From NCBI RefSeq assembly GCF_000341345.1, contig NC_020302.1:1530075-1594074 (forward strand): 64,000 nt of DNA, in the 5' to 3' direction. A program made the translations under genes and the position numbers. This stretch comes from Corynebacterium halotolerans YIM 70093 = DSM 44683. GTDB lineage: Bacteria > Actinomycetota > Actinomycetes > Mycobacteriales > Mycobacteriaceae. Each line of letters begins with the position of its first letter. Position 1 is the stretch's first letter. The notes beneath the pieces were generated by a model. That model was not told the origin of the DNA. It was given only the letters and a program-made list of their open reading frames with translations, and did not search any database. This document shows positions 1,654 through 44,778 of this stretch, in pieces.

Positions 1654-3045
1654 CTAGCTCACTGCCCGGCTGATGACGTAGAGCACCACCACGAGGATGA
1701 AGCCGATCACGCCGATCATGGTCTGGTTGACCGTCCAGGTCCGCAACGTGGTGGACACGTCCACGCCCATGAGGCGGCCGACCAGCCAGAAGCCGGAGTC
1801 GTTGACGTGACTGACGACGACCGAGCCGGCGGCCGCGGCAATGACCATCAGGGCGGTCTCGAAGGCGTTGAAGTCCCCGCCCACGACGGCCGGGGTCATC
1901 AGGGCCGCGGCGGTGGTCAGCGCGACCGTCGCCGAACCCTGCGCGATGCGCAGCACCGCGGCGACGAGGAAGACGGCACCGATGACGGGGATACCCAGAT
2001 TCGCCATCGAATCGGCCAGGGCGTCACCGATGCCGGAGGCGCGCAGCACCCCGCCGAACATACCGCCGGCGCCGGTGATCAGGACGACGGAGCAGATCGG
2101 CCCCAGCGCCCCGTCGACGCTCTTCTCGATCGCCGTGCCGGACTCGCCGCGGCGCAGGCCGAGCAGCCAGATCGCCACGAGCAGGGTGATCAGCAGGGCG
2201 ATGGGGGTGTTGCCGAAGAACTGGATGACCTGGACCCAGGTGGCGTCCGGATCGACCCAGCCGGCGGTGCCGGCCATGTTCAGGCCCGTGTTGCCGAAGA
2301 TCAGGATCATGGGGATCAGCAGGATGGCGATGACGGTGCCCGGCCCCGCCGGGTTCCTCAGCTGCTCCCGGTTGGTCTCACCCAACAGCACGGTGGTGCC
2401 GGCGTCGGGGAACTTCCGCCCGACGAACTTGCCCCACAGATAACCGGAGACGTACCAGGTGGGCAGGGCCACGACCAGGCCGATGAGCAGCACCAGGCCG
2501 ATGTCGGCGTCGAAGAACTCGGAGGCCGCGATCGGCCCGGGGTGCGGCGGCACGAACACGTGCATCACGGAGAACGCACCCGCGGCCGGGATGCCGTAAG
2601 CCAGCACCGGGCCGTTCAGGCGGCGCGCGACGGCGAAGATCACCGGCAGCATGATCACCAGGCCGGCGTCGAAGAAGATGGGGAAGCCGACGATCAGCGA
2701 GGCGATGCCGAGCGCGAACGGGGCGCGGTGATCACCGAAGGCACGCACGAGGGTGTCGGCGAGCGCCTGGGCGCCGCCGGACTGCTCGACGAGCCGGCCG
2801 AGCATCGCGCCCAGACCGACCAACAGGGCCACGGAGGCGAGCGTGCCGCCGAACCCGTCGAGCATGACGTCGACGACGGAATTGATCGGGATGCCGGCGA
2901 CGATCGCCGTCAGCGCGGAGACGATGATGAGGGTGAGGAAGGCGTGGATGCGGAATCCGATGATCAGGATCAGGATCACCGCGATCGCGGCGGCGGCGAT
3001 GCCCAGCAGTGGGCCGGCCCCGAGTGTCTGTTCCCAGGTATCCAT
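1654..3045 (-). CDS. GntP-family gluconate/sugar-acid permease
   Basis: A 463-residue, very hydrophobic protein with about 12 membrane segments. The central GAGGMFGGVLRASGIG and the C-terminal VSHVNDSGFWLVGRLMGV are typical of GntP family proton symporters that import gluconate or related sugar acids. The ATG at 3045 is chosen because AGGAG lies 8 bases upstream; the longer open frame starting at 3105 has no such signal. The gene stands alone, with no gluconate kinase beside it, so the exact substrate is inferred from family only. Confidence 0.9.
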   Translation of the reverse strand: MDTWEQTLGAGPLLGIAAAAIAVILILIIGFRIHAFLTLIIVSALTAIVAGIPINSVVDVMLDGFGGTLASVALLVGLGAMLGRLVEQSGGAQALADTLVRAFGDHRAPFALGIASLIVGFPIFFDAGLVIMLPVIFAVARRLNGPVLAYGIPAAGAFSVMHVFVPPHPGPIAASEFFDADIGLVLLIGLVVALPTWYVSGYLWGKFVGRKFPDAGTTVLLGETNREQLRNPAGPGTVIAILLIPMILIFGNTGLNMAGTAGWVDPDATWVQVIQFFGNTPIALLITLLVAIWLLGLRRGESGTAIEKSVDGALGPICSVVLITGAGGMFGGVLRASGIGDALADSMANLGIPVIGAVFLVAAVLRIAQGSATVALTTAAALMTPAVVGGDFNAFETALMVIAAAAGSVVVSHVNDSGFWLVGRLMGVDVSTTLRTWTVNQTMIGVIGFILVVVLYVISRAVS

Positions 3046-3209
3046 GACGGAGACTCCTAGTGGGTGAGGCGATGGTGGACTACGGCATTGTAGTGCCCGT
3101 CTCAATTATCCAGGTCGGCGGCACCCGGGGGTAGCCCCCGCGGCGAGGGTGGACGTCTCCCACCGACACCCGGAACGGTGCCGGGGTCCGGGGGGTGGAG
3201 GCGGCCCGG

Positions 3210-3215
3210 TAGCCT
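3210..3215 (+). promoter_or_regulatory. Leaderless -10 (TAGCCT) of the ABC1 kinase gene
   Basis: TAGCCT followed by 7 bases and ATG at 3223, with no Shine-Dalgarno. The transcript is predicted to start at or very near the A of the start codon. This supports 3223 over the upstream in-frame start. Confidence 0.55.
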
Positions 3216-3222
3216 GGCACCC

Positions 3223-5304
3223 ATGGATCAGTTCCTCGAACAGTTCGGGACGGTGGGCTCCTGGGTGACCTCCGCCCTCCTCCTCGTCCTCGGGATCCTC
3301 CTGCTCCTCGGCGTGACCTGGATACTGGCGAGTGTCATGCGACGCCTGCTGGGAGTCCCCGTCGGCTGGCCGCGCACCACCGTCATCTCCCTGCTGGTCG
3401 TACTGCTCACGGCCGGATTGTTCAACACCGTCATCAACCAGTTCCACACCGCCGAGGGCGGCGCCCTGTCCGGCATCTCACCGACCGCCGGGCTGATACT
3501 CCTGCTCATCGCCCTGCTCTGGATGCTCGGCTTCGGCGCCGCCACCCTCATGATCCTCGAACTGATCGCCCCCACCGGCTCCTGGCCCAACGTATTCGCC
3601 TGGGTGGCCGACGCCGGCGACCGCCGCGCCCGCAACCGCCGCTACCGCCAGGTCCTGACCATCTTCGTCCGCAACGGCCTGACCTCCGGCGTCCCCGGCT
3701 TCGGACGCCACCGGACCCGGGGAGGGGAATCCACCGACGACCGCGAGTCGCTGCGCCGCACAGCCCGCTCCCTGCGCGTCGCCCTCGAGGAGGCAGGCAC
3801 CACCTTCGTCAAACTCGGCCAGAACCTGTCCACCCGCACCGACGTGCTGCCCCCGGAATTCATCTCCGAACTCTCCCGGCTGCAGACCCAGGCCGCACCC
3901 GAACCCTGGGGACCCATCCACGCCGCCCTGACCGAATCCCTCGGCCGCGACCCCGCAGAGGTCTACGCCTGGATCGACCACGAACCACTCGCCAGCGCCT
4001 CCGTCGCCCAGGTGCACCGCGCCCGCCTGACCGACGGCACCGAGGTCGTGCTCAAAATCCAGCGCCCCGGCACCCGCGAGGAAGTCACCCGCGACTCCGA
4101 CATCGTCATGCGGCTGTGCGGGTGGCTCGACCGCAACACCGGCTGGGGCCGCAACCTCGGCATCCGCCAACTCGCCGCCCGCTTCACCGAATCCCTCGCC
4201 GAGGAACTCGACTACCGCATCGAGGCCGCCAACATGAAGGATCTCGAACACGCCCTCGCGGACGGCCCCGTCACCATGCCCCGGGTCCACCCGGAACACT
4301 CCTCAACCCGCCTGCTGGTGATGGACCTGATGGACGGCACCACGGTCGGACGCGCCGGGCGCGAGCTCTCGCACCTCCCCGAGAGAACGCGTATCCGGCT
4401 GGGGGAGGAGCTGCTGGTGTCGGTGATGCACCAGATCATGCGCCACGGCGTCTTCCACGCCGACGTCCACCCCGGCAACGTGCTCCTCCTCGAAACCGAC
4501 GACGGCCCCCTCCTGGGCCTGCTGGACTTCGGGGCCGTCGGGCATCTCGACGCAGGCGCCCAGCAGCAGCTGGCGATCGTCTTCGCGGCCCTTGAGCAGG
4601 GCGACGCCCGTGTCCTCACCGACGCCCTCATCGAGTTGCTCGGCCGCCCCCGGGACCTGGATGACCGCGCCCTGGAACGGCAGGTCGGGGAACTGATGAT
4701 CCGCTACCGCAACGGGCTGCGCGGTGGTTCCGCCTCGGAGCTGTTCGGCCGGTTGATGGCGATGATCGTGGCCAACCGTTTCGAGGTGCCCGCCGGGGTC
4801 GCCGCCGCCTTCCGCGCCCTGGGCGGGGCGGAAGGCACCCTCGCGCTGATCACCCCGGACCTCGACATCGTGGAGACGGCCCGCACGGTCGGCTCGGACA
4901 TGACCAGATCGCAGTTCCGCCCCGACAACCTCAAGGACGCGGCGAACGCGGTGATGCTCGAGACGATCCCCCTGCTCCGGAAACTTCCGCGCCGGATCAG
5001 CCACATCACCGAGGACCTGCACGACGGCCGCCTCTCCGTCAACGTCCGCGTGCTGGCCCACGCCGAGGACCGCAACTTCATCACCCGGCTGTTCCAGCAG
5101 TTCACCATCGCGGTGCTCGCCGGCTTCTGCGTCCTCGGCGGCATCGTGCTCATCGCCTTCGGCGAGGGCGGCCCCGCGCTGACGGACTACCTGAGCTGGC
5201 AGGCCGCGCTCGGCTACATCGTCCTGTTCGCCGGCTTCCTGCTCTCCCTGCGGATTGTCACGCTGGTGCTCTACCACGGCAACCGGGACTCGTTGGCGGG
5301 GTGA
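3223..5304 (+). CDS. ABC1/AarF/UbiB-family kinase-like membrane protein
   Basis: A 693-residue member of the UbiB/AarF atypical kinase family. The KxGQ motif (FVKLGQNLSTR, about residue 197), the ExD motif (EELDYRIEAANM), the catalytic-loop equivalent FHADVHPGN (about 410) and LDFGAVG (about 433) are all present. Three hydrophobic segments precede the kinase-like domain and two follow it, so the protein is membrane-bound at both ends. Family members assist quinone synthesis or lipid handling by an ATPase activity; which applies here is unknown. The start is set by the leaderless promoter at 3210. Confidence 0.88.
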   Translation: MDQFLEQFGTVGSWVTSALLLVLGILLLLGVTWILASVMRRLLGVPVGWPRTTVISLLVVLLTAGLFNTVINQFHTAEGGALSGISPTAGLILLLIALLWMLGFGAATLMILELIAPTGSWPNVFAWVADAGDRRARNRRYRQVLTIFVRNGLTSGVPGFGRHRTRGGESTDDRESLRRTARSLRVALEEAGTTFVKLGQNLSTRTDVLPPEFISELSRLQTQAAPEPWGPIHAALTESLGRDPAEVYAWIDHEPLASASVAQVHRARLTDGTEVVLKIQRPGTREEVTRDSDIVMRLCGWLDRNTGWGRNLGIRQLAARFTESLAEELDYRIEAANMKDLEHALADGPVTMPRVHPEHSSTRLLVMDLMDGTTVGRAGRELSHLPERTRIRLGEELLVSVMHQIMRHGVFHADVHPGNVLLLETDDGPLLGLLDFGAVGHLDAGAQQQLAIVFAALEQGDARVLTDALIELLGRPRDLDDRALERQVGELMIRYRNGLRGGSASELFGRLMAMIVANRFEVPAGVAAAFRALGGAEGTLALITPDLDIVETARTVGSDMTRSQFRPDNLKDAANAVMLETIPLLRKLPRRISHITEDLHDGRLSVNVRVLAHAEDRNFITRLFQQFTIAVLAGFCVLGGIVLIAFGEGGPALTDYLSWQAALGYIVLFAGFLLSLRIVTLVLYHGNRDSLAG

Positions 5305-5444
5305 GCCGGGGCTCCAGGGACACCCGGGGCGGCAGATAGTTACCGATTCCCCGGTGGCTGCGGGTGCGAGCAAGTAGGTTCAGGAGTGAGCCAGCGCACA
5401 CGCGCTGATGTCTTCACTCCCCGTGACACCGAAAGCGAACAGCG

Positions 5445-6437
5445 ATGTTTCCTTCCCGTTTCAAGCTCCTGGCCAGTGTCTTCACCGCAGGTGCCCTCGC
5501 CCTCGTCGCCTGCGGCGAGACCTCCGATACCGACACCGGCACCGACGCCGCCGGGGGCGGTGAGTCCTACGCCATCGGCATCAACCAACTCGTCCAGCAT
5601 CCGGCCCTGGACGCCGCCACCGCAGGCTTCAGGGAGGCGCTCGAGGAATCCGGGGTCGAGGTGACCTTCGAGGAGCAGAACGCCAACGGTGAGCAGGCGA
5701 CCGCGCTGACCATCGCGCAGTCCTTCGCCAACGACGATCTGGACCTGGTCCTGGCCGTGGCCACCCCGGCCGCCCAGGCCACCGCCCAGAACATCACCGA
5801 CGCCCCCGTGCTGTTCACCGCCGTCACGGACGCGGAGTCCGCGGACCTGGTCGACTCGAACGACTCTCCCGGCGGCAACGTCACCGGCACCTCCGACGTC
5901 GCCCCGATCGAGGAGCAGCTCGACCTGCTCACCCAACTGGTGCCCGACGCCGAGAACATCGGCATCGTCTACAGCTCCGGGGAGGTCAACTCGGAGGTGC
6001 AGGTCGCCGCCGTGGAGGAGGCCGCTGCGCCGTTGGGAATCGACGTCACCACCCAGACGGTGACCACCGTCAACGAGATCCAGCAGGCCGTCGAGGCGCT
6101 CGGCGACGTCGACGCCATCTACGTGCCCACCGACAACATGGTTGTCTCCGGTATCGCCTCCCTCATCCAGGTGGCCGAGCAACGTCAGATTCCGGTGATC
6201 GGCGCGGAGTCCGGCACCGTCGAGGGTGGGGCAGTGGCCACCCTCGGCATCGACTACACCGAACTGGGCCGCCAGACCGGGGAGATGGCCCTGCGCATCC
6301 TGCGCGACGGCGAGGATCCGGCCACGATGCCGGTGGAGACGGCCGATGAGTTCACCTACGTGATCAACGAGGACGCCGCGCAGCGCCAGGGTGTGGAGAT
6401 CCCGCAGGAGATCCTGGACGAAGCCGAGCGGGTATGA
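5445..6437 (+). CDS. ABC importer substrate-binding lipoprotein (PF04392-type)
   Basis: A 330-residue binding protein with a lipoprotein signal (LVAC, Cys near residue 23). The body reads like the ABC_sub_bind/TrpX family (GINQLVQHPALDAATAGF, PAAQATAQNITDAPVLFTAV). In other bacteria these proteins bind aromatic amino acids or similar small molecules; no substrate can be assigned here. It is the first gene of a three-gene operon. Its stop overlaps the permease start (ATGA). Confidence 0.9.
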   Translation: MFPSRFKLLASVFTAGALALVACGETSDTDTGTDAAGGGESYAIGINQLVQHPALDAATAGFREALEESGVEVTFEEQNANGEQATALTIAQSFANDDLDLVLAVATPAAQATAQNITDAPVLFTAVTDAESADLVDSNDSPGGNVTGTSDVAPIEEQLDLLTQLVPDAENIGIVYSSGEVNSEVQVAAVEEAAAPLGIDVTTQTVTTVNEIQQAVEALGDVDAIYVPTDNMVVSGIASLIQVAEQRQIPVIGAESGTVEGGAVATLGIDYTELGRQTGEMALRILRDGEDPATMPVETADEFTYVINEDAAQRQGVEIPQEILDEAERV

Positions 6438-7388: not shown

Positions 7389-8180
7389 ATGCTGAAAATC
7401 GACCACGTCTCCAAGACCTTCTTCGCCGGCACGGTCAATGAACGCCGCGCGCTGGTCGAGGTGGACCTCTCGCTGGCCGAAGGCGACTTCGTGACCGTCA
7501 TCGGTTCCAACGGCGCCGGAAAATCCACCCTGCTCAATGCGGTCTCGGGCCGGCTTCCCGTCGACTCGGGCACCGTCGAGATCGACGGCGCGAAGGTCAA
7601 TCGCCTGCCCGAGCACAAGCGGGCCCGCTACATCGGCCGCGTTTTCCAGGACCCCCTGGCCGGCACCGCCCCGAACCTGACGATCGAGGAGAACCTCTCG
7701 CTGGCGCTGTTGCGCGGAAAGCGCCGCGGGCTGCGGCCGGGACTGACGGGCAGCCGCAGAGCCCGCTTCGTCGAGGAACTGGCGACCCTGGAGCTCGGCC
7801 TGGAGGACCGCCTGACCGCGAAGGTGGGGCTGCTCTCCGGCGGCCAGCGCCAGGCCCTGTCACTGCTGATGACCGGGTTCACCCAGCCGAAGATCATGCT
7901 GCTCGACGAGCACACCGCCGCCCTCGACCCCCAGCGGGCGGAACTGGTGACCACCCTGACCGAGCGGATCGTCGAACGGGGCGGGTTGACCACGCTGATG
8001 GTCACCCACAACATGGAACAGGCCATCCGGCTGGGTAACCGGCTGATCATGATGCACGAAGGGCGCATCGTCTACGAGGCGGACCAGGCCGCCAAGACGA
8101 AGCTGACAGTGAAGGATCTGCTCAGTGAGTTCACGAAGATCAAGGGCGCGACCCTGTCGGACAAGGCGTTCCTGGGGTAG
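7389..8180 (+). CDS. ABC importer ATP-binding protein
   Basis: A 263-residue ATPase with Walker A GSNGAGKST (39-47), signature LLSGGQRQALSLL, Walker B IMLLDEHTA and switch VTHNM. It energises uptake by the permease and lipoprotein encoded just upstream. The ATG at 7389 is chosen because the protein then begins with the usual LKIDHVSKTF strand; the open frame extends upstream only as a shadow of the permease gene. Confidence 0.92.
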   Translation: MLKIDHVSKTFFAGTVNERRALVEVDLSLAEGDFVTVIGSNGAGKSTLLNAVSGRLPVDSGTVEIDGAKVNRLPEHKRARYIGRVFQDPLAGTAPNLTIEENLSLALLRGKRRGLRPGLTGSRRARFVEELATLELGLEDRLTAKVGLLSGGQRQALSLLMTGFTQPKIMLLDEHTAALDPQRAELVTTLTERIVERGGLTTLMVTHNMEQAIRLGNRLIMMHEGRIVYEADQAAKTKLTVKDLLSEFTKIKGATLSDKAFLG

Positions 8181-8379
8181 GGAACGGGCCTGTCCTGGCC
8201 GACGGCTGCACGAACGCAGCTGCCGGCCTCCTTCTGTTACGGCAGGACGCGAACGAAACCCTGGCCTTCACAACTCCGGCTTCCTGGCGGACTGCTCGGA
8301 CAATCTTCCCTGCTTCACGTTCTACTGCTCGGGTGCCTGAGCCCGTTCCGCGTCATCCTGCAGTCCAATAATGTGGACA

Positions 8380-8412
8380 CAAAAAATCCCCGATCTTTGC
8401 GATCAGGGATTC
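8380..8412 (-). terminator. Rho-independent terminator after tRNA-Pro
   Basis: On the minus strand AATCCCTGATC, a short loop and GATCGGGGATT form a stem with one mismatch, followed by TTTTTTG. It lies 10 bases beyond the tRNA 3' end. Confidence 0.85.
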
Positions 8413-8422
8413 CATGGCTCTG

Positions 8423-8496
8423 TCGGACTGACAGGATTTGAACCTGCGACCCCTACACCCCCAGTGTAGTGCGCTACCAAGCTGCGCCACAGTCCG
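8423..8496 (-). tRNA. tRNA-Pro (anticodon GGG)
   Basis: A 74-base cloverleaf on the minus strand. The acceptor arms CGGACTG and CAGTCCG pair perfectly with discriminator A. The D-loop contains AGCTTGGTAGCGC, the anticodon stem is CTACA/TGTAG around the loop CTGGGGG (anticodon GGG, reading CCC and CCU), and the T-arm holds GGTTCAAATCC. The 3' CCA is not encoded. Confidence 0.95.
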
Positions 8497-8584
8497 CCGT
8501 CACATCTCTCAATGCGACTGGTTCAGGTTACAACAGTGTGATCCGTTTACGCTAATCGGCAGGTCAGTAGGGGTGGGGAACTGG

Positions 8585-8980
8585 TTATGACACGTCGCCC
8601 TCACTGTAGACCCAGGCACCGTCCACGCGGCGGAAGGTCGAGCGCTCCCGCTGGGAGCCGGAGACGTCACCCTTGTAGAAGGCCTCGAACTCCACCACGC
8701 CCGTCTGATCCAGCGGCCCGCCGGCCACCGTGTCCAGGATGTCCAGCCGGTAGAAGCGGACGGGCATGTCGGCCAGCGTCAGCTCGGCCGGGCGGGTCGC
8801 CGGATCCCAGGTGCGCAGCAGGTACCCCACGTCCTCCGTCACAAACGCCGTGAACCGGGAGCGCATGAGCGTCTCCGCGGTTGGGGCGGGGGTTCCGCCG
8901 TGGTATTTTCCGCAGCACTCGCCGTAGCTCAGGCCAGTGCCGCAGGGGCAGCGCCTCTCCGCCGGGATCGCCGCACTCAT
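8585..8980 (-). CDS. YchJ-like SEC-C motif protein
   Basis: A 131-residue protein with an N-terminal SEC-C metal-binding motif (CPCGTGLSYGECCGKYH, four Cys and a His for zinc) and a small alpha/beta domain like E. coli YchJ. Its biochemical role is unknown. The start ATG overlaps the stop of the hydrolase-OsmC gene (ATGA), so both are translated from one message running away from secA2. Confidence 0.85.
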   Translation of the reverse strand: MSAAIPAERRCPCGTGLSYGECCGKYHGGTPAPTAETLMRSRFTAFVTEDVGYLLRTWDPATRPAELTLADMPVRFYRLDILDTVAGGPLDQTGVVEFEAFYKGDVSGSQRERSTFRRVDGAWVYSEGDVS

Positions 8981-10131
8981 GCCTGCACGTCCATGATGTT
9001 CGCACCTTCCAGCATCGCCTCGATGTCCGTCTTCTTCGCGGCGTCGAGGAGCACCCGGCGCTGCTCAACGCTCAGATCCCCCACCAGGTGGATCCTGCGC
9101 TCGAAGGTCGAGTCGAGCACGTTGACCACGGACACCTCGACGTCGTCGAGCGGCATGCCCTTGGCGGCCTCGCGGACGGCCTGCGACGTCGCCGACGCGA
9201 GCGCGGACATGAGCAGGCCCATCGCGCTGAAGCCCTGGTTCTTGCCGCCGGCGGCCTTGGGGCGGTCGGTGACGAGCTCGCGGTCGTCGGTACGCACGAC
9301 CGCGCCGAAGCGGGTGCCGGCGGCCGGGCGCGCGACGGCGGTGTCGGCGTTGGTCGGCTCGGGGGTGAACTCGGGCTCGAGGTACTGCTGGACCCAGTTG
9401 CCGATGATGTGCCCCGCGTGCTGGGCCACCCCCTGACGGGTGCACAGGTGGTCGGCCTTGTCGAGGGAGACCAGCGACTTCGGGTAGCGCGTGGTGCGGA
9501 AGATGTTCTGCGCGTTGTCCACGCCGACGGTCTGGTCGATGGGGGAGTGCACGATCATCAACGGCTTGCGCATCCTCGGCAGGTAGGCCTCCGGGTCGGT
9601 GTCGGCCAGGTCCTCGAGGAAGGGCCGCGAGATGACGATGTCGCGCCCGCCGAGGACGACGGTGACCGCCCCGTGGTCGTCGACCTCCTTGATGCGGTCG
9701 GCGAAGTGCAGCACCGCGTGCGCCGGGTCGAAGGGCGCGCCGATGGTGGCCACGGCGCGCAGATTCCGGATCCGCGTGGCGGCCCGCAGGGAGGCTGCGC
9801 CGCCCAGGGAGTGTCCGACCAGCAGCTGCGGGGCCGAGTATTGCCTGGTCATCCACTCGTTGGCGGCGATGATGTCCTCGACGTTCGAGCTGAAGCAGGT
9901 GTCCTCGAAGTTGCCCTCCGACTGCCCGAGGCCGGGGAAGTCGAACCGCAGCGAGGCGATCCCGTACTCTGCGAGTGTCTTGCATACCCGGGCCGCTGCG
10001 GGGGTGAACCGGGAGCCGGTGAAGCAGTGCGCGAACATCGCGTACGCCACCGGGGGAGAGTCGGGGAAGTCGATGGTGCCTGTCATCGTCGTCCCCTGAC
10101 TCGAGGGAAGCTTGACGCTCACGGAATGCAA
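8977..10131 (-). CDS. Alpha/beta hydrolase fused to a cysteine-less OsmC-like domain
   Basis: A 384-residue two-domain protein. Residues 1 to about 250 form an alpha/beta hydrolase (GHSLGG nucleophile elbow, AHCFTGSRF oxyanion region, a His in KADHLC). Residues 260-384 follow the OsmC fold, but both positions that normally hold the peroxidatic and resolving Cys are changed (ALASATSQ and AAKKTDIEAM). The OsmC half therefore probably cannot reduce peroxides. The listed start is TTG, 11 bases after AAAGG; a GTG at 10122 and an ATG at 10086 (after AGGGG) are alternatives, but family N-termini favour the longer form. It is divergent from secA2. Confidence 0.85.
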   Translation of the reverse strand: MHSVSVKLPSSQGTTMTGTIDFPDSPPVAYAMFAHCFTGSRFTPAAARVCKTLAEYGIASLRFDFPGLGQSEGNFEDTCFSSNVEDIIAANEWMTRQYSAPQLLVGHSLGGAASLRAATRIRNLRAVATIGAPFDPAHAVLHFADRIKEVDDHGAVTVVLGGRDIVISRPFLEDLADTDPEAYLPRMRKPLMIVHSPIDQTVGVDNAQNIFRTTRYPKSLVSLDKADHLCTRQGVAQHAGHIIGNWVQQYLEPEFTPEPTNADTAVARPAAGTRFGAVVRTDDRELVTDRPKAAGGKNQGFSAMGLLMSALASATSQAVREAAKGMPLDDVEVSVVNVLDSTFERRIHLVGDLSVEQRRVLLDAAKKTDIEAMLEGANIMDVQA

Positions 10132-42613: not shown

Positions 42614-42904
42614 GCTGGCCCACTTTCTGCGTAGGTCTTATTGGACTCTTCGAGATTACGTTCCCATATCGTGAGAGTCAATTCTCATTTCTTGAGAATA
42701 TCTCACGGAGTGGGAATTTCTGACGGAAGGGCCGAGTCTAGGCCCCGAGAATTCGGAAACCCTTTCCCAAAATATGGGACAGTCTCCTGAGTTCCGCCCC
42801 GAAAGGGTGGACAATATCCGAGGGGGAAAGGGAGGAGCATCCAGAATGGAGACCATGAACCCCGCCGCAGCGCTCGTCTGAGGACCCGCGGCCGTCATCT
42901 GCTG

Positions 42905-43462
42905 TTGAACCTCATCGAGGACGCGGTTGCCGTCACCGCCGGCCCGAGCGAGAGGACGCCGCTTGACCGCCTCCTGGGGAATCTGGCCAGCGAGATCTAC
43001 CACGCCAGTGGCCTCTGGTGGTTGGAGGACTCCTTCGGCTGGAGGTGTGCCGAGCTGTTCACGGTCGACGTCGATCCGGATACTCGCGTCTTTGAGATCG
43101 GCAGCGCAATGGACTGGACCAATCTGTGCCGGGACTACCCGCTGGAGGTGACGTGGGGCATACAGAACACTTGGCATGCATGCACGGGCCGCCACGGCAA
43201 ATGGTTGATACCGGACTGGTCTCAGGTATCCCGCGACTTCGACGCCGTACACCCGACCGTGCCGGGTTGCCTGGGGACGGCGGGGAAGGTGCTCGACCTC
43301 GGAGACGGCTTCGCCACCCTGCTCGCCGGCTGGGATCCCGACGAAGCCTACTGGCTGAGAGGAGGATCCCGGCCCTCGGAGGAATCGACGAGCTGGCACC
43401 AGCGGGAAGAAGACAACCTGTGGGTGCGGGGGACGGGGAAACTGCCGGATCCACAGGTCTGA
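42905..43462 (+). CDS. Uncharacterised protein of a tandem actinobacterial family
   Basis: A 185-residue soluble protein with no domain I can name. Notable blocks are SGLWWLEDSFGWRCAELFTVDVD, DWTNLCRDYPLEVTWG, WLIPDWSQVSRDFDAVHPTV and GFATLLAGWDPDEAYWLRG, Trp-rich and apparently conserved among corynebacterial hypothetical proteins. The TTG at 42905 lacks a clear Shine-Dalgarno; upstream, an out-of-frame ATG 42846 with GGAGG opens an 11-codon frame, so the 5' end may be damaged. The degraded remains of a paralogue lie 450 bases downstream. Confidence 0.55.
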   Translation: MNLIEDAVAVTAGPSERTPLDRLLGNLASEIYHASGLWWLEDSFGWRCAELFTVDVDPDTRVFEIGSAMDWTNLCRDYPLEVTWGIQNTWHACTGRHGKWLIPDWSQVSRDFDAVHPTVPGCLGTAGKVLDLGDGFATLLAGWDPDEAYWLRGGSRPSEESTSWHQREEDNLWVRGTGKLPDPQV

Positions 43463-43889
43463 CAGGCAGGCCACCCCGCGCCGGGCAGGAGGCCGGCAAG
43501 GTGCGTGTCGACGCCCGCGGCCTCACTGTGAGCGCAAGGACGGCAAACGACGGGTCGCTCGCGATCACTTGGGCGCGTTCATGAACGACGAGCTTGCCGC
43601 ACAGTTGGGCGGCGTGCTGGAGCGGCACCCCTACCCGTACCCGGGAACCCGGGATGCGGGGGAGGGGCAATCCTCTGCCCGGGCGGACGGCGAGGATACC
43701 CTGCGCACAGAGTCGGAAACCCTGCTGTGGGGCCGGTACCGGGCGCATGGGCCGCTGGCGGGACACGTGGAAGATCTACGCGGCGGGAGGGGCTGAGCGG
43801 CCTAGTATCGACGATAGGCTTGACTTATTCGCTGGCACAGGGGGCACCACGCCTCGCCAGCCGTCTCGAAGCGCCGTGTGGATATGAAT
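43463..43889. other. Decayed stretch between the paralogues
   Basis: Contains a short frame GTG 43501 to TGA 43584 (VRVDARGLTVSARTANDG) overlapping by ATGA a 71-codon frame 43581-43796 (NDELAAQLGGVLERHPYPYPG). Neither has a convincing ribosome site. They may be broken parts of small genes that once paired with the uncharacterised family. Confidence 0.35.
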
Positions 43890-44050
43890 ATGAGCAGGAC
43901 GACTCCGGGCGGGCGCTCAAGGTTGGAAACCGGACCGGTGCCATGGTCGCGGGGTGGAATCCCGGGGAGACCCGCTGGTTGCGCAGCTGTGTGCAGCTGG
44001 CTGGCCGGGCCGCCCGGGGGCGGGGAGTGGTACGACCGGTGGGGAAGTGA
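43890..44050 (+). pseudogene. Remnant of a second copy of the 42.9 kb gene
   Basis: The frame ending at 44050 reads ALKVGNRTGAMVAGWNPGETRWLRSC, which aligns without gaps to VLDLGDGFATLLAGWDPDEAYWLRGG of the intact upstream gene. The sequence before it (43727-43890) shows no similarity, so only the 3' end of a tandem duplicate survives. Confidence 0.6.
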
Positions 44051-44164
44051 CATGAGACACGACTGGCCCCGAATCTTGAGCGAGCCCTGACATCAGCCAG
44101 GACAAGGGTCCTGGCATGGGGGTTGACTGTGTAGCTCTGCGTGTTCTATTTCGCTGATCATGGA

Positions 44165-44491
44165 TCAGGCTGAGGCCAGCTTCTGGTTGATCAGGGCATT
44201 CAGGGAAATCCCTTCGGACTCGGCCATCATCACGAGACGGCGGTGCAGGGATCGCGAGGTCCGCACGTTGAACTTTCCGGAGTAGGAGCGCTCACCCAGC
44301 GGGGTAGGGGCGGCCTCTCCGGTCTTTTCCATGTCGTCGAGGATCTCGGCCACGAGGTCAACCAGGCCGTTTTCCGCTTCCTGGCGATCCTGGGCAAGCC
44401 AGGAGAGGGAAGGGAACTCCAGTACGGTTGCGACGTGCTCCTGGTCTTCCTCCGACCATGAGACCTGATAGGTGTACCTGTTGGCGTCCAT
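44165..44491 (-). CDS. hicB: HicB-family antitoxin
   Basis: A 108-residue antitoxin. The N-terminal half is the partially degraded RNase-H-like HicB fold (YQVSWSEEDQEHVATVLEFPSLSWLAQDRQEA) and the C-terminal half a ribbon-helix-helix DNA-binding segment (SGKFNVRTSRSLHRRLVMMAESEGISLNALINQKL). It should bind HicA and repress the operon. The ATG at 44491 is chosen because AGGAGG lies at a normal distance; a GTG at 44500 would be too close to it. It follows hicA, with the hicA stop inside its ribosome site. Confidence 0.88.
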   Translation of the reverse strand: MDANRYTYQVSWSEEDQEHVATVLEFPSLSWLAQDRQEAENGLVDLVAEILDDMEKTGEAAPTPLGERSYSGKFNVRTSRSLHRRLVMMAESEGISLNALINQKLASA

Positions 44492-44505
44492 TGTCTGCAC
44501 TCCTC

Positions 44506-44778
44506 CTACGAGCTTCTATGCTTCAGCTTTTCCACGGCCTCCAAAACCTGGTTGACCTGGTAGGCCTTTGCTTTCCCTCCGGCGTTTTGGATGTTGACGC
44601 GGGGGTTACCGGGCCAGGGGGTTTTATAGGTTTGGTGGGAGGTCTTCTTCGACGGGCGTTTCTCGAAAAAGTGATCACACACCTTTTCCAATTCTGCGAA
44701 CCGAATATTCGCCGAAGAGTGCCGCATCTTCTCCAGGATCTCCTCGACGCTTTTACCCATGCTTTTATGGTACCGCAT
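44506..44778 (-). CDS. hicA: HicA-family mRNA interferase toxin
   Basis: A 90-residue toxin (or 84 residues from the second ATG at 44760). The dsRBD-like core SANIRFAELEKVCDHFF and the catalytic His in SHQTYKTPWPGNPRVNIQ are intact, so the protein should be an active ribosome-independent mRNA-cleaving enzyme. The order toxin then antitoxin on one transcript is the standard hicAB layout. The pair is lower in GC than its surroundings, in keeping with transfer. Confidence 0.88.
   Translation of the reverse strand: MRYHKSMGKSVEEILEKMRHSSANIRFAELEKVCDHFFEKRPSKKTSHQTYKTPWPGNPRVNIQNAGGKAKAYQVNQVLEAVEKLKHRSS

Follow-up and report, generated by a model that had tools for sequence, protein, structure and literature searches.

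The window, meaning the whole stretch of 64,000 nucleotides (64 kb) analyzed here, lies within the 3.2-Mb genome of Corynebacterium halotolerans YIM 70093. Its listing of open reading frames (ORFs) includes a 185-amino-acid ORF at positions 42905 to 43462 (+), which the original prediction described as an intact gene of an uncharacterized family accompanied by a degraded tandem copy. The features of this locus, with the evidence for each, are as follows.

42830 to 42857, plus strand: Shine-Dalgarno-like GGGAGGAG and the original start codons, ATG 42846 and ATG 42855 (sequence; DNA alignment with the relative L008)
42855 to 42945, plus strand: N-terminal remnant, MNPAAALV ... RGRHLLLNL, spread over two frames; an in-frame stop follows 8 codons (translation in three frames, DNA alignment)
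42905 to 43462, plus strand: 185-amino-acid ORF, beginning at a TTG inside the N-terminal remnant and not at the original start
43004 to 43462, plus strand: C-terminal domain, predicted to resemble ADP-ribosyltransferases (ART-like), of the very probably decayed copy (hmmsearch E 5.3e-50, profile positions 222 to 360)
43463 to 43903, plus strand: spacer without a recognizable gene; the ORFs 43569-43793 and 43727-44047 start here
43904 to 44002, plus strand: C-terminal remnant of a second family member (hmmsearch, profile positions 314 to 346)
44165 to 44500, minus strand: HicB-family antitoxin, an unrelated neighbor (Pfam HicB, E 1.5e-16)
44506 to 44778, minus strand: HicA-like toxin, an unrelated neighbor (tblastn matches to plasmid genes with the annotation "toxin HicA," such as one of Cnuibacter physcomitrellae at 51.2% identity)

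A profile of 361 positions was built from 21 full-length homologues and used to search the window in all six frames without filters. Only two matches were significant, one in the frame of the 185-amino-acid ORF (E 5.3e-50) and one at 43904-44002 (E 1.2e-6); the third-best match had an E value of 4.2. The ORF covers only positions 222 to 360 of the profile, and the 21 full-length relatives span 336 to 402 residues, with a GPRGR-type motif at the start and an AGWxPxxTYW block at the end. By this alignment, the ORF is the C-terminal domain remaining from a member of a family of 336 to 402 residues; upstream of it, a stretch of about 190 profile positions that makes up most of the N-terminal helical domain is missing.

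The region ahead of the ORF retains traces of the original gene. Window DNA at 42831-42945 aligned with the start region of L008 with a score of 76, compared to a best score of 41 in 200 shuffles, and the alignment begins 23 bases before the L008 start codon. The ribosome-binding site at the original start is clear, and the frame opened by that start stops within a few codons; the remaining N-terminus lies in the frame of the 185-amino-acid ORF, which is already open from 42791. For reference, the consensus of the family begins LLAGPRGR. With a frame change and an early stop near the start, and with its coverage confined to the end of the profile, the gene is not intact as had been proposed. 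Conserved residues were compared as well: of the 26 conserved columns in the C-terminal domain, 3 are changed in the window copy, and the 51 distinct members compared depart at 0 to 3 columns (mean, 0.53), with no departure in 30 of them, one in 16, two in 4, and three in a single full-length member, L015. One of the residues replaced in the window copy, Tyr310 (numbering of the Rhodococcus phenolicus member L044), is present in 51 of the 51 distinct members.

The second match corresponds to about 33 residues from near the end of a family member, with an E value of 1.0e-4 when the search is sized to the whole genome. The gap-free block that had been noted as common to both copies is present, reading LAGWDPDEAYWLR in the 185-amino-acid ORF and VAGWNPGETRWLR in the 3' remnant, and the remnant aligns with the ORF beyond chance (score of 70, against at most 42 in 1,000 shuffles); its description as a degraded copy holds, as only profile positions 314 to 346 are left. 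A recent tandem duplication is unsupported. The remnant scored 90 against L008 and 70 against the neighboring ORF, which ranked 14 of 52, and because it thus resembles other members more than the ORF beside it, we do not regard it as a recent duplicate. These alignments are best explained if it is the tail of a paralogue that is older or was acquired independently. Family genes stand side by side in a few other genomes as well (G399, G407, and G354, there on contig 89).

Small broken genes had been suggested between the two copies. None of the frames there has a recognizable relative: the overlapping frames 43569-43793 and 43727-44047 had no match in Pfam or NCBIfam, and an 86-amino-acid frame at 43536-43793 gave only noise-level matches (18.4 to 20.4 bits), in 5 of the 241 other genomes searched in the genus, and no match on plasmids. 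The 185-amino-acid ORF and the remnant frames likewise had no match in Pfam or NCBIfam at E ≤ 5, and the 185-amino-acid protein alone, used as the query, recovered no relative in a first scan of genome contigs. When 42614-44160 was searched as DNA through 242 genomes of the genus, no species-level relative with an intact locus at this site came to light; outside the C. halotolerans genome, it returned short or weak matches only, in 21 genomes, the best being 66% over 275 bases.

The family has a patchy distribution in Corynebacterium, Rhodococcus, and other Actinomycetes. At E ≤ 0.001 and with C. halotolerans included, matches were present in 26 of the 201 Corynebacterium genomes searched, in 71 of 251 genomes sampled across the taxonomic family (44 of the 71 with a single match), and in 4 of 246 genomes of a phylum-wide sample. 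Eighteen loci were confirmed by a pattern scan over named genomes, in Corynebacterium, Rhodococcus, Arthrobacter, Microbacterium, Brevibacterium, Micrococcus, Kocuria, and Propionibacteriaceae. On plasmids, the family was present in 16 of 72,556 records, 14 of them from Rhodococcus. A tblastn search of 50,697 phage records with the single member L031 found no relative, none of 31 pattern stretches from viral contigs was one, and the best PHROGs match had an E value of 0.091 in 1 of 18 members; a phage or prophage element is thus unsupported by any of the three sources. The original claim that the family is uncharacterized was upheld. None of the 18 full-length members matched Pfam below E 0.07 or NCBIfam at E ≤ 0.1; in PADLOC, no anti-phage defense profile was met, the best result for the 18 members being a single match (DpdH, E 0.024) in one of them; and a keyword search of the open-access literature turned up no description that we recognized. 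Judged by these profile libraries, in which Pfam, NCBIfam, PADLOC, and PHROGs hold no convincing match, the family is uncharacterized.

Intact members are under constraint, with dN/dS values of 0.20 to 0.53 in nine pairs. The best 19-residue hydropathy mean among the 21 members was 1.58, a value below that of a clear membrane span, and the family is probably intracellular. Of the other 25 Corynebacterium genomes in which the family occurs, five (G003, G010, G044, G116, and G186) hold only broken copies, with stops, frame changes, or fragments, so decay is common in this family, bearing in mind that some broken copies may stem from draft contigs and that two (L016 and L018) rest on a single stop. 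A further genome (G046) carries one intact and two broken copies. On the Prescottella equi plasmid p1-WH99, the family frame is open over its full length (7974-9107 of the stretch L061), and the public gene table lists the 3' part only (8724-9107); the gene start may be miscalled there or the table may be incomplete.

Structure prediction, which had been proposed as a check, was carried out with the intact Rhodococcus phenolicus member L044, modeled by AlphaFold with 13 other alignment rows; the models overall rest on 14 to 15 rows. The full-length model (pLDDT 79.0, pTM 0.84; two of five models good) consists of a helical domain at about residues 1 to 145 followed by an alpha/beta domain, and the C-terminal domain modeled alone reached a pLDDT of 72.4 and a pTM of 0.74, with one of five models good. 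Foldseek returned no match at E ≤ 0.001 for either model, and the viral structure library none at that threshold. Among the best 50 Foldseek rows, ARTs made up 2 for the full-length model and 19 for the domain alone, the latter all with E > 1 and drawn from the PARP/tankyrase, RES, LT, and PltA branches. A structural second look, whose candidates had been pre-chosen by Foldseek and whose ART rows were mostly PARP entries, placed MbcT first for both the full-length model (Z 4.9, rmsd 4.5, 127 aligned) and the domain (Z 5.2, rmsd 4.0, 128 aligned); the best 50 rows were of the ART fold in 50 of 50 cases for the former and in 49 of 50 for the latter. The domain rows included diphtheria toxin, RES, PARP, and tankyrase, and the sole non-ART entry was a cyanophage ejection protein. 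Scores of Z under 8 may reflect a common structural arrangement, and the agreement of these weak scores across separate ART branches is suggestive. On these models, we lean toward an ART-like fold for the C-terminal domain of the family.

The first residue of the ART catalytic triad lies on beta-1. In the 51 distinct members, no conserved His or Arg was found on the predicted beta-1 (residues 151 to 155 of L044), and the usual first catalytic residue is therefore not visible in the family; the triad motifs are H-Y-E or R-S-E (PMC3482391). Several other residues are near-invariant in the same set, namely E229 (51/51), D230 (50/51), T282 (51/51), D292 (49/51), H304 (50/51), and Y310 (51/51) in L044 numbering. 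By sequence, a profile of 18 members found no PDB chain at E ≤ 10.

Among known systems, the best second-look match of both models, the RES family toxin MbcT of the Mycobacterium tuberculosis MbcT-MbcA pair (PDB 6fkg), is actinobacterial and ART-like. The family differs from it in carrying a helical N-terminal domain on the same chain, and the resemblance is recognized at weak Z only. Membership of RES is ruled out by sequence, as none of the 18 full-length members matched RES (PF08808) in Pfam at E ≤ 1, and an hhalign comparison with RES proteins of 25 loci (24 usable) gave a probability of 0.3%. No Xre/DUF2384 antitoxin of the MbcT/RES kind was present among 40 chosen neighbors in a Pfam scan at E ≤ 1e-5, in which 14 of the neighbors matched nothing. 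The PARP and tankyrase catalytic domains, of the H-Y-E ART clade, supply most second-look rows (Z 3.6 to 4.3), and PARP1 likewise has a helical domain ahead of its ART domain. Sequence similarity to this clade was not detected (the search of PDB chains noted above), and its H-Y-E residues are not evident in the family alignment. MbcT acts as an NAD+ phosphorylase, according to a review (PMC8883491). A third point of comparison is the Tne5-type NAD(P) glycohydrolase, a highly divergent ART fold that hydrolyzes NAD(P) and sits at the tip of an Rhs toxin that is secreted and has an immunity partner (PMC13285283); such a context was not seen for the present family.

The surroundings of the family genes were surveyed in 62 stretches, mostly of about 17 kb, with the window included and a few overlapping (e.g., L035 and L080). 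Genes were predicted with a rough codon-usage script, which missed the family gene itself in 15 of the 62 stretches, and 845 predicted genes were clustered. The widest non-family cluster consisted of generic ABC transporters, in 12 stretches, followed by MFS transporters in 6, including one beside the window gene; all other neighbor clusters spanned at most 5 stretches each, and several of these reflect gene order conserved between closely related species. Toxin or immunity genes formed no recurrent cluster in the 62 stretches. Of 40 neighbors that we selected from the called genes, Pfam named 26, with mixed functions that include phosphofructokinase, ribosomal proteins S20 and L19, NUDIX, an epimerase, and a GntR regulator; one (L097) was SUKH-type.

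A toxin-antitoxin pair does adjoin the window locus, as had been stated, with HicB identified by Pfam and HicA through annotated relatives. On the minus strand, the HicA-like gene lies just upstream of the HicB gene; it had no Pfam match above the cut-off and none in the PDB search, and gave a weak PADLOC match (PDC-M68A, E 0.00043). Other loci have surroundings of their own. On a plasmid of Rhodococcus sp. H-CA8f (L064), an annotated TNT-domain protein at 2771-5455 lies about 2.5 kb from the family gene at 8001-9119, near one of four annotated plasmid loci, and is the sole annotated toxin domain that we noticed in those four regions. R. phenolicus (L044) and a Rhodococcus ruber plasmid (L062) share a block in which a 447-amino-acid predicted ORF precedes the family gene and a DUF6461 protein follows it. 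In two Corynebacterium stretches (L031 and L032, 8001-9017 in each), an intact family gene stands directly upstream of a dop-like gene, and a third stretch (L084, genome G044) has a broken family gene in the same Pup-proteasome-like surroundings; the neighbors in these three look like genes that, by recognition of their sequences, we take to be arc/mpa, dop, pup, and pafA of the Pup-proteasome cluster.

We weighed three alternatives against our reading of the locus. The genes could form an array of immunity or accessory genes, as the original prediction proposed, tied to polymorphic toxins or to the adjoining HicAB pair. In keeping with this, two homologous copies stand in tandem in the window, adjacent pairs recur in three other genomes, and the Rhodococcus TNT-domain toxin gene and the SUKH-type gene are neighbors of members. 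However, 44 of the 71 genomes with the family have a single match, the named neighbors are mixed in function, none of the 50,697 phage records matched the member used as query, and no recurrent toxin or immunity cluster emerged. The only partners that recurred among the 845 genes of the 62 stretches were common transporters, members of small clusters, and genes in synteny between close species. Homologues are thus scattered without consistent neighbors, the outcome that the original prediction had itself named as refuting it; the idea of an array fails, and we rule it out as highly improbable. Concerning the window copy itself, the 185-amino-acid ORF could be a functional shortened member, its C-terminal domain still working alone, for its frame is open, 23 of 26 conserved domain columns are kept, L015 departs at three columns as well, and the domain-only model of a relative still matches ART-like structures. 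Against this, the original start and ribosome-binding site feed a frame that closes within a few codons, and the ORF has only an internal TTG as its start; a Tyr invariant in all 51 members is replaced; and decay is common here, with broken copies alone in 5 of 25 other Corynebacterium genomes. We regard a working short form as unlikely and the window copy as very probably decayed. It is the truncation and the frame change, both directly observed, that carry this claim, and residue loss is supporting evidence only because L015, a full-length protein, departs at as many columns. Because the helical domain is absent and the invariant Tyr310 is replaced, the window copy is probably non-functional. 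The locus itself is ordinary gene decay: it would comprise two decayed members of an uncharacterized Actinomycetes family, the first having kept its ribosome-binding site, start codon, and C-terminal domain and lost the frame near the start and the helical middle, and the second having kept only its roughly 33 residues.

For intact members, the predicted structure suggests a helical N-terminal domain (residues 1 to 145, with GPRGR and AxYWQxP motifs) before a divergent ART-like domain that would most resemble the RES toxin MbcT and the PARPs. NAD+ could then be bound in the ART cleft, the protein would act on NAD+ or transfer ADP-ribose within the producing cell, and the helical domain might serve as a built-in regulator on the same chain. 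An NAD-using activity on this model is a tentative proposal that we hold with less than even confidence. About equally plausible is that the family, though related to the ART fold, is catalytically dead or does not bind NAD, or that it has another alpha/beta fold of similar appearance, with a binding or regulatory role. This would fit the weak Z scores (≤5.2), the predicted beta-1 without conserved His or Arg, and the absence of a sequence link to RES (by Pfam or profile comparison) or to any PDB chain. On the other side, the leading structural matches are nearly all ARTs, and the near-invariant polar and aromatic residues (E229, D230, T282, D292, H304, and Y310) look like those of an active site. 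There is also precedent in a highly divergent ART-fold NADase, for which PMC13285283 describes a change of a predicted Glu as having little effect and a Lys as important. Taken as a whole, the account of two decayed copies from a family whose intact members would combine a helical domain with a divergent ART-like, NAD-using domain seems to us evenly balanced.

A bolder proposal, which we consider rather unlikely, is that intact members are ART-fold enzymes of a new class, with a built-in helical regulator and an active site that departs from the canonical one, for which the six residues above would be candidates; they would act as a one-gene, antitoxin-free, NAD+-consuming switch in Mycobacteriales and Micrococcales, often gained and lost. 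If so, the frequent broken copies would mark sites where the switch was disarmed. Should the ART-like fold and NAD+ use be confirmed, Corynebacterium, Rhodococcus, and their relatives would gain a chromosome- and plasmid-borne NAD-using family with its regulatory domain built in, in place of a separate antitoxin. The locus is ordinary, and the family is mildly interesting and merits a name and an assay.

The one match outside the ARTs in the domain comparison deserves separate mention. Residues 1420 to 1610 of a cyanophage A4 pre-ejectosome protein (PDB 9k3a, chain B) matched the model of the ART-like domain with a Z score of 4.8 and an rmsd of 5.3 over 131 aligned residues. Judging from this comparison with a model, the region may be an unrecognized ART-like domain in an ejected phage protein.
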